Shown piece by piece: positions 3,563-13,175 of a stretch of DNA of 64,000 nt. The position numbers were made by a program, and so were the translations under genes. The number at the start of each line of letters is the position of its first letter. Position 1 is the first letter of the stretch. The DNA lies in assembly GCF_902168435.1 (NCBI RefSeq), contig NZ_LR656165.1, positions 248,001-312,000 of the forward strand. The letters run 5' to 3'. The stretch comes from Bacillus marasmi (GTDB lineage: Bacteria; Bacillota; Bacilli; Bacillales; Cytobacillaceae). The notes below the pieces were generated by a model that was not told where the DNA came from, searched no databases, and saw only the letters and a list, made by a program, of their open reading frames with translations.

Positions 3563-3597
3563 AAAAAAACCTCGTGCCCGAAAAAGGGACGAGGTTT
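3563..3597 (-). terminator. T-box regulated terminator before pheS
   Basis: An inverted repeat of AACCTCGTCCC and its complement is followed by seven T residues on the minus strand. It overlaps the 3' half of the T-box, as expected for a terminator/antiterminator switch. Confidence 0.92.
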
Positions 3598-3874
3598 GGT
3601 TCGCGGTACCACCCTTATTAACAAGCACGTCAAACAATGCCTGTTCGCTTAATTGGATAACGACTTTTTAGCCGATGCATCTTTACACTAGAAAAGCGGA
3701 AGCGGCTCGCCTGTGTGGCAGCATGCTACTTTTCATAATGGTCCCGATGCCAACTCCGGAGGTGAACTTCACTTTCCCTTACCATAAAAATGCTTCCAGT
3801 CTCGGCATTTTCTCCCTAAATGGCTGGTGAAAAGCTACTTTTCTCCATCAACGTTTTTTTGGTCATGCAATTTG
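3563..3874 (-). ncRNA. T-box leader of pheST
   Basis: The leader RNA senses uncharged tRNA-Phe and allows read-through into pheST. The conserved T-box AAGGGTGGTACCGCG is read on the minus strand at 3602-3616. It is followed at once by a terminator with GAGG..CCTC-type stem arms and a run of T (3563-3597). A candidate UUC (Phe) specifier codon sits at 3764-3766 within TTCACCTCCGGA. An R1 repeat fragment (3691-3712) lies between the stem I region and the antiterminator, which is unusual. Confidence 0.93.
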
Positions 3875-7101: not shown

Positions 7102-8724
7102 TCATATTGTTATTTCGTTCGTCATCGCTAATTGTTCATATTGCGTGACATTCTCAAGTAGTGACACCATTTTTTCAATATCCTCAACATCGTAATCACC
7201 GATAGTTGCAATCTGAATCCAATTTCGCTCACGTAAATAATCACTTCGATAATGAAGCTGATAGCCCTGGTAACGAATCAATTCACCAATGGCAGTTGAA
7301 GAGATCGACTTCGGGATGACAACTGTCATAATAATTGGAGAAGCGTGGTTTATCGGCGCAAGAATCTCCATTCCTCGCTCCTCTAAGTGATTTCGAATCA
7401 GGTGATAACGCTGGTTTATTTTCCGGATTCGCGCATCATTATCCATTTGTATTGCAGTATGTAATGCGTTGATAAGATTTGAAGAATGTGAAAATGGAAT
7501 GCTATCATTATCCTCATAAAGTCCGAGATCGATATAATTCGGTAGTCGCTTTGACGGCATGACGTGATGTTGGTGGAACACAAACGATAGCCCTGTGAAA
7601 GCTCCAAGCGCTTTACCACTGACACCAGACGCTAAATATACTCCTGCCAAATCAATAGGGACTGTCCCTAATGAACTAATGCAATCCACACAAAGCTTAA
7701 TGTCGTGTTGAGCAGCGATGGCTTTAACTGCATCAAGATCGTTTAGGATGCCAGTTGAGGTTTCACTATGAACCATCCAAATCCAGGCTGGTGGCGTTTG
7801 GTCAGTTTTTATTTTCCCAAGAATCTCTTGGGGTAAAATTGGTTGTCCCCAGTCCTTTTCGATTGTATCGAATATGAGGCCAAAGCGTTCAGCCTGCAAT
7901 TTAAGCCTTGTGCCAAATTCGCCATTGATTAAGATGAGTCCAGGTTTATTTAATAATGATAGCTGAGCGCCAATCATATCATTCGCTAACGTACCCGAAC
8001 CAAGAAGAATTTGCACATGCTGGCTGTTTGTAATTTGGCAAAGACGCTTTTTCGTGTTGGTTAAATGATCAATGAACGCTTCTGAGCGATGGGAAATTGG
8101 TTCAGCTGCAAAGGCTGCTTTGATTTCTGGTAAAATTGGAACAGGGCCAGGCAGAAAATGAATCATCGGTTTAATGATTCGGCCTGCAAGCGATTGGTCA
8201 AAGGTTTCCTTCGTTAAATACATCGGCTGATATTGGGCGTCCTCACTGCCCACTAGGTGAGCAAAGGGCTCGAACCCCATTTGTCGGTACAACTTAAGCT
8301 GGCGAGTCGTTCCAGAAATTACTGCCGCATCAAAGCCTTTCCTCAAACTATAGCGTGCCAAAAATTGTGCCAATCCGAGAAATACTCTGCCATGGCGATA
8401 TTCTTTTGCGACAGATAATAAGCGAATTTCACAAGGTTTTTTGGCTTCGATATGCTTCGGGAGCGCGGCTTCAACCTGTCCAATTTTTTTATCCAAGGAA
8501 AACGGGCGCTTGTCGCGGATTGCAATCATCCCGATGACCTGTGTTTCTTTTATACAAATAATATATGTATTTTCATCGTTGTAGGGGTCAATTAACATTT
8601 CTTGCTCATTTTCATGATGCTGCGGAATTTCCTTCACAAATGTTTGATAGTTGAGTTGATGGATTTGCTGAAATTCTTGGGGATGATTGGCGATTTTGAA
8701 TATGTAATCATGATTTTCGCTCAT
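7102..8724 (-). CDS. Fusion of GNAT acetyltransferase and class V aminotransferase
   Basis: This 540-residue protein has two enzymatic halves. Residues 1-175 look like a GNAT N-acyltransferase (VIGMIAI, EIRLLSVAKEYRHGRV and the helix LKLYRQMGFEPF). Residues 190-540 are a fold-type I PLP enzyme of the class V, alanine-glyoxylate/serine-pyruvate type: LLGSGTLANDM phosphate loop, Asp347 in CVDCIS for the pyridine nitrogen, and SGKALGA with Lys371 as the likely Schiff-base lysine. The start overlaps the end of the PlsY-like gene by 17 bp, suggesting translational coupling. Substrate and product are not known. Confidence 0.82.
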   Translation of the reverse strand: MSENHDYIFKIANHPQEFQQIHQLNYQTFVKEIPQHHENEQEMLIDPYNDENTYIICIKETQVIGMIAIRDKRPFSLDKKIGQVEAALPKHIEAKKPCEIRLLSVAKEYRHGRVFLGLAQFLARYSLRKGFDAAVISGTTRQLKLYRQMGFEPFAHLVGSEDAQYQPMYLTKETFDQSLAGRIIKPMIHFLPGPVPILPEIKAAFAAEPISHRSEAFIDHLTNTKKRLCQITNSQHVQILLGSGTLANDMIGAQLSLLNKPGLILINGEFGTRLKLQAERFGLIFDTIEKDWGQPILPQEILGKIKTDQTPPAWIWMVHSETSTGILNDLDAVKAIAAQHDIKLCVDCISSLGTVPIDLAGVYLASGVSGKALGAFTGLSFVFHQHHVMPSKRLPNYIDLGLYEDNDSIPFSHSSNLINALHTAIQMDNDARIRKINQRYHLIRNHLEERGMEILAPINHASPIIMTVVIPKSISSTAIGELIRYQGYQLHYRSDYLRERNWIQIATIGDYDVEDIEKMVSLLENVTQYEQLAMTNEITI

Positions 8725-9401: not shown

Positions 9402-9665
9402 TTATTTTATTAAAAAATAGCCAATGAGAACGACTTGGATAATGGCCAGCAGCGGGAAACCAAGCTTGAAGTTCGTATGTTTCGTTTTATGACGAAACAC
9501 TTGCATTGCAATCGTCATCGCGAGTGCTGCTCCAACAATCGCCGTTAGCCAAAGTGTACGTTCTGAAATTCGGTATTCGTGATTTCTTGCTCGTCTTTTA
9601 TCCTCCCCCATTAAAAAGAATCCAATAACGTTTATGATGATGACTATCCAGGTGATGATATTCAA
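9402..9665 (-). CDS. ysdA: DUF1294 membrane protein (YsdA-like)
   Basis: This is a small membrane protein of 87 residues with hydrophobic segments at about residues 3-19, 39-56 and 68-86, and the DUF1294 motif GEDKRRARNHEYRISE between the first two. Function is unknown in the family. The start is TTG, set 8 nt behind GGGAGGC. In B. subtilis ysdA also lies just beyond rplT. Here a NERD gene and the 52-bp array separate the two. It is divergent from the NERD gene. Confidence 0.85.
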   Translation of the reverse strand: MNIITWIVIIINVIGFFLMGEDKRRARNHEYRISERTLWLTAIVGAALAMTIAMQVFRHKTKHTNFKLGFPLLAIIQVVLIGYFLIK

Positions 9666-9762
9666 ATTTTTGAGCCTCCCTTTTATTGCTTTTGCTTGTA
9701 AAATATTTTTATTTTCCCTAAAATTAATATATCAATATAAGATTGGAGATGAAATATGGAAT

Positions 9763-10680
9763 ATGGAAATCTGTAAACAGCGTCCTGTACCTACTGCATT
9801 AACGTATATGAGGTCTCTAAATGCAAGAATAGAGTTGACTGACAAACAAAAACTTTACTGTTCGACCTTAGAAAAAGGGTATACTGGTGAACCCCTCTTC
9901 GATCAACTACTACTCTCAAACCTCACACTAAATTGCCTTGTCTTGAATGATGTCCTCCTAGAATCAAACAACAACGAATTTCAAATTGATACTTTTATAA
10001 TCACCCAAACCACATTATACCAATTGGATGTCAAGAATATGGAAGGTGATTATTATTTAGAAGATAATAAATGGTACACCTTCCCTAAAAATGATATTAA
10101 AAATCCAATGATACAGCTAGAACGAAGCGAAACTTTAATCCGCCAATTAAAGCGTGAACTTGGTTTTCAGTTAGAAATCAAGCCATTATTAATTTTCGTT
10201 AACCCCGGTTTTCAACTTTATCATGCTCCACCTTCAATGCCTATCATTTTTCCATCCCAACTATACCGCTTTATGAAAAAATTAAACAATCTACCTGCAC
10301 ATTTAACTGAAAAACATTATAATTTCGCTGAAAAATTGTTATCTTTGCACCTACCTGTGTCAAAGAATATGAAAATTCCAGCTTATACCTGGGAATCGAC
10401 GGGAAAAGGCATGCTTTGCGGGACGTGTTTTTCGTTGGATACGGTGGTAGTGGAGAATAAGTTGGTTTGTAGGAGATGTGGGGGGATTCATGAATTGGAT
10501 GCAGCCGTGATAAGGAATATTGAGGAATTGAAGTTTCTTTTTCCCGATTTGAGAATTACGACAAAGTTAGTTCAAGAATGGTGTGGTGTGGGGATTTCTA
10601 AAAAAACGATTCGGAGGATACTGATGAAAAATTACCAAAATTTAGGTCATGGCAAGTCGTCTCATTTTGTTGATTTTTAG
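9763..10680 (+). CDS. NERD-domain protein with C-terminal zinc ribbon and helix-turn-helix-like tail
   Basis: This protein of about 305 residues has a nuclease-related domain (residues 40-180): GYTGEPLFD, then FQIDTFIIT and LDVKNMEGDYY, which fit the D..(D/E)xK core of restriction-like nucleases. The C-terminus has a zinc ribbon (CGTC..CRRCGG, near residues 222-246) and a helical tail, RITTKLVQEWCGVGISKKT, that looks like a DNA-binding helix-turn-helix. NERD proteins are common in bacilli but poorly understood. ATG 9763 has only a distant GGAG; the better-placed ATG at 9756 encodes just six residues. The stop codon runs directly into the 52-bp array. Confidence 0.72.
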   Translation: MEICKQRPVPTALTYMRSLNARIELTDKQKLYCSTLEKGYTGEPLFDQLLLSNLTLNCLVLNDVLLESNNNEFQIDTFIITQTTLYQLDVKNMEGDYYLEDNKWYTFPKNDIKNPMIQLERSETLIRQLKRELGFQLEIKPLLIFVNPGFQLYHAPPSMPIIFPSQLYRFMKKLNNLPAHLTEKHYNFAEKLLSLHLPVSKNMKIPAYTWESTGKGMLCGTCFSLDTVVVENKLVCRRCGGIHELDAAVIRNIEELKFLFPDLRITTKLVQEWCGVGISKKTIRRILMKNYQNLGHGKSSHFVDF

Positions 10681-10692
10681 AGGGCACGAGCT

Positions 10693-11680
10693 ATGGTTAC
10701 CGCTCTCGCGTTTTTTCACGGTCCATGGGCACCATTCGTCCTCTATGGTTACCGCTCTCGCGATTTTGGGTGATCCATGGGCACCATTCGTCCCCTATGG
10801 TTACCGCTCTCGCGATTTTTGGTGGTCCATGGGCACCATTCGTCCCATATGGTTACCGCTATGACGTTTTTAGACGGTCCATGGGCACCATTCGTCCTCT
10901 ATGGTTACCGCTCTCACAATTTTGGGTGGTCCATGGGCACCATTCGTCCTCTATGGTTACCGCTCTCACAATTTGGGGTGGTCCATGGGCACCATTCGTC
11001 CTGCATGGTTACCGCTCTCGCGTTTTTCGGCGGTCCATGGGCACCATTCGTCCCATATGGTTACCGCTATGACGTTTTTAGACGGTCCATGGGCACCATT
11101 CGTCCCATATGGTTACCGCTCTTGTGTTTTTTGGTGGTCCATGGGCACCATTCGTCCCATATGGTTACCGCTATGACGTTTTTAGACGGTCCATGGGCAC
11201 CATTCGTCCTCTATGGTTACCGCTCTCACAATTTTGGGTGGTCCATGGGCACCATTCGTCCCCTATGGTTACCGCTCTCGCGTTTTTCGGCGGTCCATGG
11301 GCACCATTCGTCCCCTATGGTTACCGCTCTTGTGTTTTTTGGCGGTCCATGGGCACCATTCGTCCCCTATGGTTACCGCTCTTGTGTTTTTTGGCGGTCC
11401 ATGGGCACCATTCGTCCTCTATGGTTACCGCTCTCGCGATTTTGGGTGGTCCATGGGCACCATTCGTCCTCTATGGTTACCGCTCTTGCGATTTAGGGTG
11501 GTCCACGGGCACCATTCGTCTCCTATGGTTACCGCTCTCGCGTTTTTCGGCGGTCCATGGGCACCATTCGTCCCATATGGTTACCGCTATGACGTTTTTA
11601 GACGGTCCATGGGCACCATTCGTCCCCTATGGTTACCGCTCTAGCAGTATCGGCGGTGCATGGGCATGATACACACACAT
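10693..11680 (+). repeat. Array of 19 tandem 52-bp hairpin-forming units
   Basis: ATGGTTACCGCT recurs at 10693, 10745, 10797 and so on to 11629, always at exactly 52 bp (18 intervals, no indel). Each unit has a constant part (GGTCCATGGGCACCATTCG, then TCCYCT or TCCCAT, then ATGGTTACCGCT) and a 15-nt variable part of five main types. The arms ATGG-TT-ACCGC and GYGGTCCAT can pair around the variable part as a 9-bp stem with a two-base bulge. Unit 19 is degenerate. The G+C of a unit is about 56%, above the surroundings. No promoter or ribosome site was seen inside. Confidence 0.95.
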
Positions 11681-11705: not shown

Positions 11706-11744
11706 AAAAGCGCCATCCCCAACAAAGTGAGGATGGCGCTTTAA
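11706..11744 (-). terminator. Terminator of infC-rpmI-rplT
   Basis: The stem AAAGCGCCATCC / GGATGGCGCTTT is followed by T residues on the minus strand, just behind rplT. Confidence 0.9.
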
Positions 11745-12899: not shown

Positions 12900-13175
12900 T
12901 TTTTTCAGCGAATACAACGTTTGGATCAAGAATTGAAATCGAAATTATGCAAATCAGCTTCCTTCCGAATCTCACCTAATGATTAGCACAAAGTTGAATC
13001 GACAGATTATAAACCGCTTATAATGCAAATAAAAAAGTGTGGGTGCAATACACCCACACTTACGTTAACATACAATAATAAACATGTTTATCGTAAACCT
13101 ACCGACAGCTAGGAGCGTCAATCAGGTGAGAAGCGGGTGCTTCTTCTTTTCTCAAACTCGTATTCAATTTACCTC
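12900..13175 (-). ncRNA. L20 leader of infC-rpmI-rplT
   Basis: The leader, about 290 nt from the promoter to infC, holds a strong terminator (AAGTGTGGGTG / CACCCACACTT, 13030-13061). Upstream of it is structured sequence with GACAGCTAGGAGCG and GAAGCGGGTGCTTC. This matches the B. subtilis autoregulatory leader in which L20 binding favours the terminator. The exact binding-site fold was not worked out. Confidence 0.8.
13030..13061 (-). terminator. L20-controlled attenuator
   Basis: An 11-bp perfect stem (13035-13045 with 13051-13061) is followed by TTTTTT on the minus strand, about 150 nt before infC. Confidence 0.88.

Follow-up and report, generated by a model that had tools for sequence, protein, structure and literature searches.

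A NERD nuclease-like gene and its 52-bp tandem array: a candidate self-spreading satellite system of Bacillales

RAYTs are HUH tyrosine enzymes that work on single-stranded hairpins. In ToxIN, a type III toxin-antitoxin system, a nuclease gene lies beside a short tandem-repeat array, and the repeats are an RNA antitoxin placed in front of the endoribonuclease gene. Iterons and parS-type arrays are rows of sites bound by an adjacently encoded protein. In REP/REPIN-RAYT systems (TnpA-REP, REPtron) a nuclease-type gene stands next to palindromic repeats that have many cognate copies at extragenic positions of one genome (see PMC2817692, PMC3116915, PMC8266576). NERD is named in a survey, where a legend deals with putative auxiliary genes of CRISPR and the text also places other proteins beside non-CRISPR repeat arrays (PMC10910872). 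Excerpts of two further papers put a NERD nuclease in a rare defence system (PMC12458937) and a NERD gene near upp, the latter in a passage that shows it without repeats (PMC12802215). Searches of the open-access literature yielded no account of NERD genes with tandem repeats or of 52-bp arrays in Bacillales.

The locus described here lies in a stretch of 64,000 nucleotides of Bacillus marasmi (the window), in which a NERD gene is directly followed by an array of 52-bp units. Like REP-RAYT, it joins a gene to repeats that also occur gene-free elsewhere in the genome. Unlike RAYTs, the NERD protein is PD-(D/E)xK-like and has no HUH/Y1 transposase domain; unlike REP sequences, which are short single or paired palindromes, the NERD arrays are tandem, of fixed period and with a median of 6.7 copies, and the evidence on them points to double-stranded sites. 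Because enzyme class and repeat form differ, the module is not a member of REP-RAYT, which is its nearest neighbour in proposed working. Regular repeats beside a nuclease gene also recall CRISPR and CRISPR-like 'hypervariable regularly interspersed repeat arrays'. The neighbours seen at the module, however, are not cas genes, and the variable segments of the window's units are not all different, with 10 distinct 15-mers among 18 units and one of them present four times. The 'spacers' recur, and a search with the entire array against 50,697 phage records (E 1e-5) gave no match; on these grounds we set CRISPR aside. In contrast to ToxIN, the NERD arrays stand mostly behind the gene, occur on either strand and carry no RNA signal. 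In contrast to iterons and parS arrays, no replicon or partition genes adjoin the window locus, the protein has no match in 72,556 plasmid records, and the B. marasmi genome (G000) holds several dispersed arrays per 400 kb. As far as the open-access literature shows, the module looks like an undescribed self-spreading DNA system.

The array and the NERD gene of the window

We find that ATGGTTACCGCT occurs in 19 mismatch-free copies between 10693 and 11640, all 18 spacings being exactly 52 bp. With up to two mismatches allowed, the window holds 23 matches versus 3.51 expected, a number reached in none of 100 shuffles, and TRF reports a single array in the window (10691-11642, period 52, 18.3 copies, 88% match, 0% indels). 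The array, placed at 10693 to 11680 on the plus strand from exact matches, TRF and a unit table, comprises 18 full 52-bp units and a degenerate 19th, and unit 1 starts 12 bp past the NERD gene stop, which ends at 10680. Exact matching, TRF and Pfam thus agree with the initial annotation on 19 units with 18 spacings of 52 bp behind a NERD gene, and the unit table returns its right-arm counts for units 1-18: GCGGT in five, GTGGT in seven, ACGGT in five and GTGAT in one. The left half-site of unit 1, TATGGTTACCG, occupies 10692 to 10702 (plus strand); its columns are invariant and largely kept in 13 related arrays from three species, and its ATGGTTACCG part recurs every 52 bp. The right half-site, GGGCACCAT, lies inverted at 10727 to 10735 (plus strand), pairs with the left one across related arrays, and has 18 occurrences, at 10727 and then every 52 bp to 11611.

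A protein-coding repeat was rejected, as the 988 bp contain three to five stops per plus frame and 13 to 17 per minus frame, the 52-bp period shifts the frame with every unit, and Pfam has no match in the longest ORF. In the gap between the array and rplT the sequence reads as a GC-rich inverted repeat with A and T runs at its flanks (11707 to 11742, no strand assigned), probably the rplT terminator. A comparable imperfect hairpin adjoins rplT in G003, a genome without the module. The only Rfam matches over gathering score in the window are a T-box leader (3582-3860, minus strand) and an L20 leader (13025-13154, minus strand), the array being without match. A further frame of the window, at 7102-8724 on the minus strand, fuses an acetyltransferase-like N-terminus (FeeM/GNAT models) to a class-V aminotransferase-like domain.

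The NERD - zinc ribbon - helix-turn-helix (HTH) gene, assigned from the Pfam match and residue conservation, spans 9763 to 10680 on the plus strand and encodes 305 aa counted from the ATG at 9763; the open frame reaches back to an ATG at 9634, and the protein query used in searches (9757-10677) carried two extra leading residues. The Pfam NERD model (PF08378) matches at E 2.8e-15, with 57.2 bits versus a cut-off of 22.1. A Pfam search to E 0.1 adds only an HTH_32 match below cut-off, and no HUH/Y1 transposase. The best PHROG match (E 3.7e-4) is of unknown function. In an alignment of 100 NERD-HTH proteins E43, Q74, D76, K91 and Q118 are conserved, as are C219, C222, C236 and C239, and the residue two before K91 is mostly E in the relatives and D in the window protein. 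The nine conserved residues recur in a second alignment, of 43, in which E43 and K91 are invariant and D76 and Q118 nearly so. Catalytic residues are nearly invariant both there and in an alignment of 68, drawn from the 77 kept proteins of a set of 80 named loci described below; proteins with internal stops or odd lengths were excluded (three of 103 for the alignment of 100, three of 80 in the named set). The nuclease-type residues are followed by two CxxC pairs (219-239) and these by a C-terminal HTH-like stretch. By its conserved residue pattern the protein is PD-(D/E)xK-like, with a predicted activity; matches to a solved nuclease are weak (PvuII, E 0.0015), and the zinc ribbon and C-terminal HTH read as such from conserved sequence. 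The module has plsY, DUF1294, rplT, rpmI and infC as neighbours.

Our main reading, to which we assign a probability of roughly 0.55, is that the array offers the adjacent gene's protein a row of binding sites in double-stranded DNA, and that gene and array form a candidate self-spreading satellite system. We infer binding, cutting and nuclease-driven spread, in the following manner. A NERD-HTH dimer would bind each unit through its C-terminal HTH, and the 52-bp spacing, about five helical turns, would align the bound copies along the same face of the double helix. The PD-(D/E)xK-like domain would then nick or cut at the array, and the repair that follows may lengthen it, homogenise it and occasionally copy it elsewhere. 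Gene and array together would make up a satellite system that spreads itself, or once did so, and works like REP-RAYT. Recombination alone could also move arrays.

Linkage, turnover and dispersal of arrays

Searches for relatives of the NERD-HTH protein gave matches in 180 of 193 family genomes and in 112 of 299 from a sample of the order, but, at a stricter profile threshold, in just four of 299 from a sample of the phylum, G000 included, which speaks against a wide spread outside Bacillales. Viral contigs, the 72,556 plasmid records and phages contain no relative of the protein that we could find, and carriage of the module by phage or plasmid was set aside on this ground.

Gene and array stand side by side in many genera. 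Among 103 oriented loci (58 best matches of the family and order searches, 40 hand-picked from the order list and five other G000 copies), 95 have a TRF-type array directly behind the stop, with a period of 51-53 bp or about two or three times that; these arrays start at most 178 bp past the stop, and a few overlap the gene end. Likewise, 75 of 80 loci from named genomes, the best 80 of 469 and overlapping with the 103, have an array behind the stop. Its period is 52 in 60 loci, 51 in 11, 53 in three and 102 in one, at a median distance of 65 bp, with a median length of 350 bp and 2.1 to 21.9 tandem copies (median 6.7). The named set spans Neobacillus, Cytobacillus, Mesobacillus, Lederbergia, Peribacillus, Alkalihalobacterium, Scopulibacillus, Ammoniphilus and others, and in G000 all six NERD-HTH genes have an array. 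The tie between array and NERD gene, a suspicion raised from the window alone, is strong. Unit sequences differ widely between arrays, and several gene-array families coexist in G000.

Thirteen loci over both sets (eight of 103 and five of 80) have no array directly behind the gene. At L031, L101, L208 and L248 less than 180 bp of contig is left behind it; at L101, L142 and L214 the array lies in front of the gene instead, and at L023 it lies 400 bp downstream. No array is present in the 572 bp that remain at L093 and L227, which probably represent a single locus, and at L114, L121, L127 and L216 none was found near the gene. An operator role in front of the NERD gene was rejected, since half-site copies at its promoter are not above chance (shared 10-mers in 14 of 96 versus 14.7 expected). 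Two G000 loci are out of the ordinary. One NERD-HTH copy (L073 / L279, C13:54826-55719) has internal stops by profile alignment and keeps a homogeneous 53-bp array (93% match), which is the best match of the 53-bp orphan array L312. The other (L069, C19:352177-352470) is a NERD match in a 661-codon open frame, with a TCTACGT-type 52-bp array about 1.7 kb off.

Arrays come and go between close species. In the DUF1294-rplT gap the NERD-array module is present in G000, G004 and G002 and absent from G003 and G001, that is, in three of five species. The ktrC-rnjA gap holds an array of about 1 kb in G000, and TRF finds none there in any of four congeners. The lonB-lon gap has an array in G000 and G004 and none in G001 and G003, and in G002 an array sits on the opposite side of lonB. 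Inspected by eye, the ktrC-rnjA gap of G001 (L338) shows two 52-bp units of another type with AGTAG/CTACT arms, a mini-array that may represent an early step in array formation. G001 is without the module at its rplT site and has a GC-rich stretch there (L187, ~1290-1430).

Could the arrays be of service to the host? The protein might bind them with a role in nucleoid organisation or in the insulation, termination or regulation of transcription, its nuclease-like domain being for upkeep only. The occurrence of the gene in 180 of 193 family genomes and its retention with the array at one site in three species fit such a role, as does the orientation of the gene behind the array, which converges on it at 45 of 63 loci by a rough ORF call (12 of 75 unscored). 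Yet array sites vary even within the genus, unit sequences differ widely, several gene-array families share one genome, and the catalytic residues are nearly invariant. We consider host service unlikely.

Arrays also occur away from the gene, and in G000 matching ones lie at other intergenic sites. In 20 gene-bearing genomes, 20 fixed stretches of 20 kb contained five period-52 arrays, and 20 stretches of G000, hand-placed away from sites already examined, contained eight of period 51-53, whereas 38 stretches (760 kb) of nine genomes without a protein match at the limits of the family and order searches contained none. The array load, 13 in 800 kb with the gene versus 0 in 760 kb without, gives P 1.7e-4, or P 0.005 without G000, and is confounded with taxonomy, since the nine genomes are partly of other families. 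A recount at one threshold agrees, and the NERD-HTH gene lies in none of the 78 stretches. A 54-bp, 2.2-copy repeat (L155) was left uncounted, and at L163 the array reaches the end of the sampled stretch. Extrapolated at the sampled density, G000 would hold on the order of 90 arrays. The same genome has 123-124-bp tandem repeats at L065 827-1339 and L312 16617-16988.

Six of the eight sampled orphan arrays of G000 have their best match, among 96 NERD arrays, in one of their own genome (P 1.5e-6); the other two, L319b and L329, have no good match to the NERD arrays of G000. In a biased sample of five further G000 orphan arrays, an own array ranks first in three, second in one and 38th in one. 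Orphan matching was done in G000 alone, and shared descent, rather than spread in trans, could be part of the source of its signal. The initial annotation had held that units at random sites without NERD genes, together with no covariation beyond chance and no transcript, would leave a plain tandem repeat. The outcome was mixed: arrays do sit at sites without NERD genes; on the other side, six of eight orphans match an own NERD array best and 760 kb of genomes without a match to the gene hold no array.

Another possibility is defence, in which a nuclease held on the arrays is released, or one that spares the arrays acts, when foreign DNA enters. NERD nucleases do figure in defence systems, as part of one paper states (PMC12458937). 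Matches of the window protein to known defence models are weak, with 29.2 bits against a cut-off of 460 for the MAD6 model and E 0.016 for MkoA; no NCBIfam model reaches its cut-off and PADLOC gives no good match. Given also that the module has no obvious partner gene, its neighbours being DUF1294 and rplT, and that the array is without match in phage records, a defence function appears improbable.

Half-sites and the RNA alternative

We turn to the form in which the array would be read. In 13 related arrays from three species, picked for shared TTACC-type units, the unit, written in degenerate form, runs TAT(G/C)GTTACCG, some nine variable bases, a run of T, some ten more variable positions, (C)GGGCAC(C/G)AT(A) and about six bases. 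The two unit ends are inverted half-sites: a left G goes with a right C, and the reverse. Over the 13 arrays 92.3% of cells are paired and seven cells carry double changes. One shuffle in 500, and no slid version out of six, reached the covariation score. The covariation rests on two column pairs, and two of the five measures fall within the shuffles (pairs with double changes, 2; pair types, 5). That half-site changes in related arrays stay paired was counted for the reading as double-stranded binding sites.

Inverted repeats are widespread among the arrays, 44 of 92 beating all 20 of their own shuffles where 4.4 are expected. Dyads were examined in 143 array consensus sequences from both locus sets, with exact duplicates removed and related loci among them, so that not all are independent. 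In 52-bp arrays, 50 of 51 strong dyads are odd in length, which means that the dyad is centred on a base pair; the ten strong 51-bp arrays are equally divided as to which dyad centre is odd. Odd dyads would be better explained by a fixed, rigid geometry than by a flexible RNA loop. Weak inverted repeats only are present in 55 of 106 consensus sequences of 52-bp arrays, and these weak dyads and the two unmatched orphans of eight were counted against the binding-site reading. Half-sites are mostly separated by 17-18 bp over the shorter gap and by 34-35 bp over the longer one, and the idea that half-sites are spaced by whole helical turns was dropped because of these values.

Which part of the protein follows the array? 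Over 93 loci array similarity correlates weakly but distinctly with protein similarity (Spearman 0.13, 0 of 500 permutations). When the rest of the protein is controlled for, residues 241-305 give a partial r of 0.149 (0 of 500 permutations), residues 1-40 one of 0.092 (0 of 500) and the nuclease core, 41-180, one of -0.016 (348 of 500). The order is unchanged among pairs below 55% identity (0.122, 0.070 and -0.043, respectively). This effect, small and with relatedness only partly removed, suggests that array sequence is read by the C-terminal HTH. TATCG and TATGG arms both occur in one genus, and such natural array pairs suit the study of how protein-DNA specificity switches.

The array might instead be transcribed into a structured RNA, perhaps one that acts on the NERD protein like the antitoxins of type III toxin-antitoxin systems. 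The 12-bp gap behind the stop makes read-through possible, and the units contain inverted repeats. The initial annotation had proposed a hairpin of ATGG..ACCGC with GCGGTCCAT, read from the plus strand and kept by wobble pairs. Within the window array this hairpin is paired in 95.8% of cells; over the 13 related arrays the figure falls to 51.3%, and the window's units show no compensatory change in it. One of its nine pairs does alternate, being G-C in eight of 16 distinct rows and G-U in the other eight; another pair is disrupted in four rows. A broader count used 418 units from the 52 of 92 arrays with an inverted-repeat score of at least 7. Among changed arm pairs G.T (126) hardly exceeds A.C (108), so neither strand is favoured. 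A folded transcript should tolerate C-to-T and A-to-G changes in the arms on one strand; these stand against the reverse changes at 494 versus 379 outside the arms and 133 versus 118 within them, so the arms show, if anything, less of this bias. Compared with shuffles, single-unit folds of three units have z-scores of -0.8 to -1.2 on the plus strand and of -2.0, -0.8 and -0.5 on the minus strand; the -2.0 was counted in favour of RNA, and the plus-strand values are little better than shuffles. Orientation with respect to the gene is not constant either: on the gene strand, 51 of 75 arrays are pyrimidine-rich, 14 purine-rich and 10 neither. Moreover, three arrays stand in front of the gene and orphan arrays lie at other loci. 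An RNA hairpin array, set aside on wobble counts, fold z-scores and pair counts, which all fail to support a plus-strand structure, is thus very unlikely, and the evidence points to sites that act as double-stranded DNA. Two of the earlier guesses fit, that the array is bound by the NERD protein and that it is a selfish minisatellite, and they may be one and the same thing. Slippage can create tandem repeats anywhere, but a plain minisatellite that came to lie behind a NERD gene by chance is in our view refuted by the linkage at 95 of 103 and 75 of 80 loci and by the one narrow period.

A second NERD subfamily and a possible wider class

Does the pairing extend beyond 52-bp arrays? We put forward, tentatively and at a little less than even odds, a class of Bacillales satellite DNA in which NERD-zinc ribbon nucleases would fall into families with separate sequence codes and would build, homogenise and spread arrays of whole-turn period. 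Dozens of these would occur per genome, several independent pairs would coexist, and code and specificity would change together. The periods would be whole helical turns, 52 bp being about five turns in the HTH subfamily and 20-21 bp about two turns in a second one. If this is true, most sampled genomes of a large family of soil bacteria would contain a bacterial equivalent of satellite DNA, served by a dedicated nuclease, and it would have stayed concealed until now as 'NERD domain protein' and anonymous tandem repeats. It would give NERD proteins of this kind a candidate substrate, and might be one reason why NERD is listed among CRISPR-associated genes in the legend of one survey (PMC10910872).

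The second subfamily comprises five other NERD genes of G000 and has relatives in 108 of 121 sampled genomes. It is 22-24% identical to the first where BLAST aligns the two, and a zinc ribbon was seen by eye in one of its proteins. One or more direct-repeat arrays with a period of 20-21 bp or a multiple are found at 27 of 34 loci (L280-L309, L063, L068, L070-L072), behind the stop at 12 and in front of the start at 18, with three having them on both sides; these counts were obtained at a low TRF score limit (40) and without a matched control. Four of five sampled G000 sites of 20-21-bp period (three in L313, one in L319) share words, by reading, with second-subfamily arrays. Repeats of 21 bp also occur in G072, which has the second subfamily, and in G026, which has neither, so that the background is less clean than for the 52-bp arrays. 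A second-subfamily gene also lies in L163, one of the control stretches that contain a 52-bp array.
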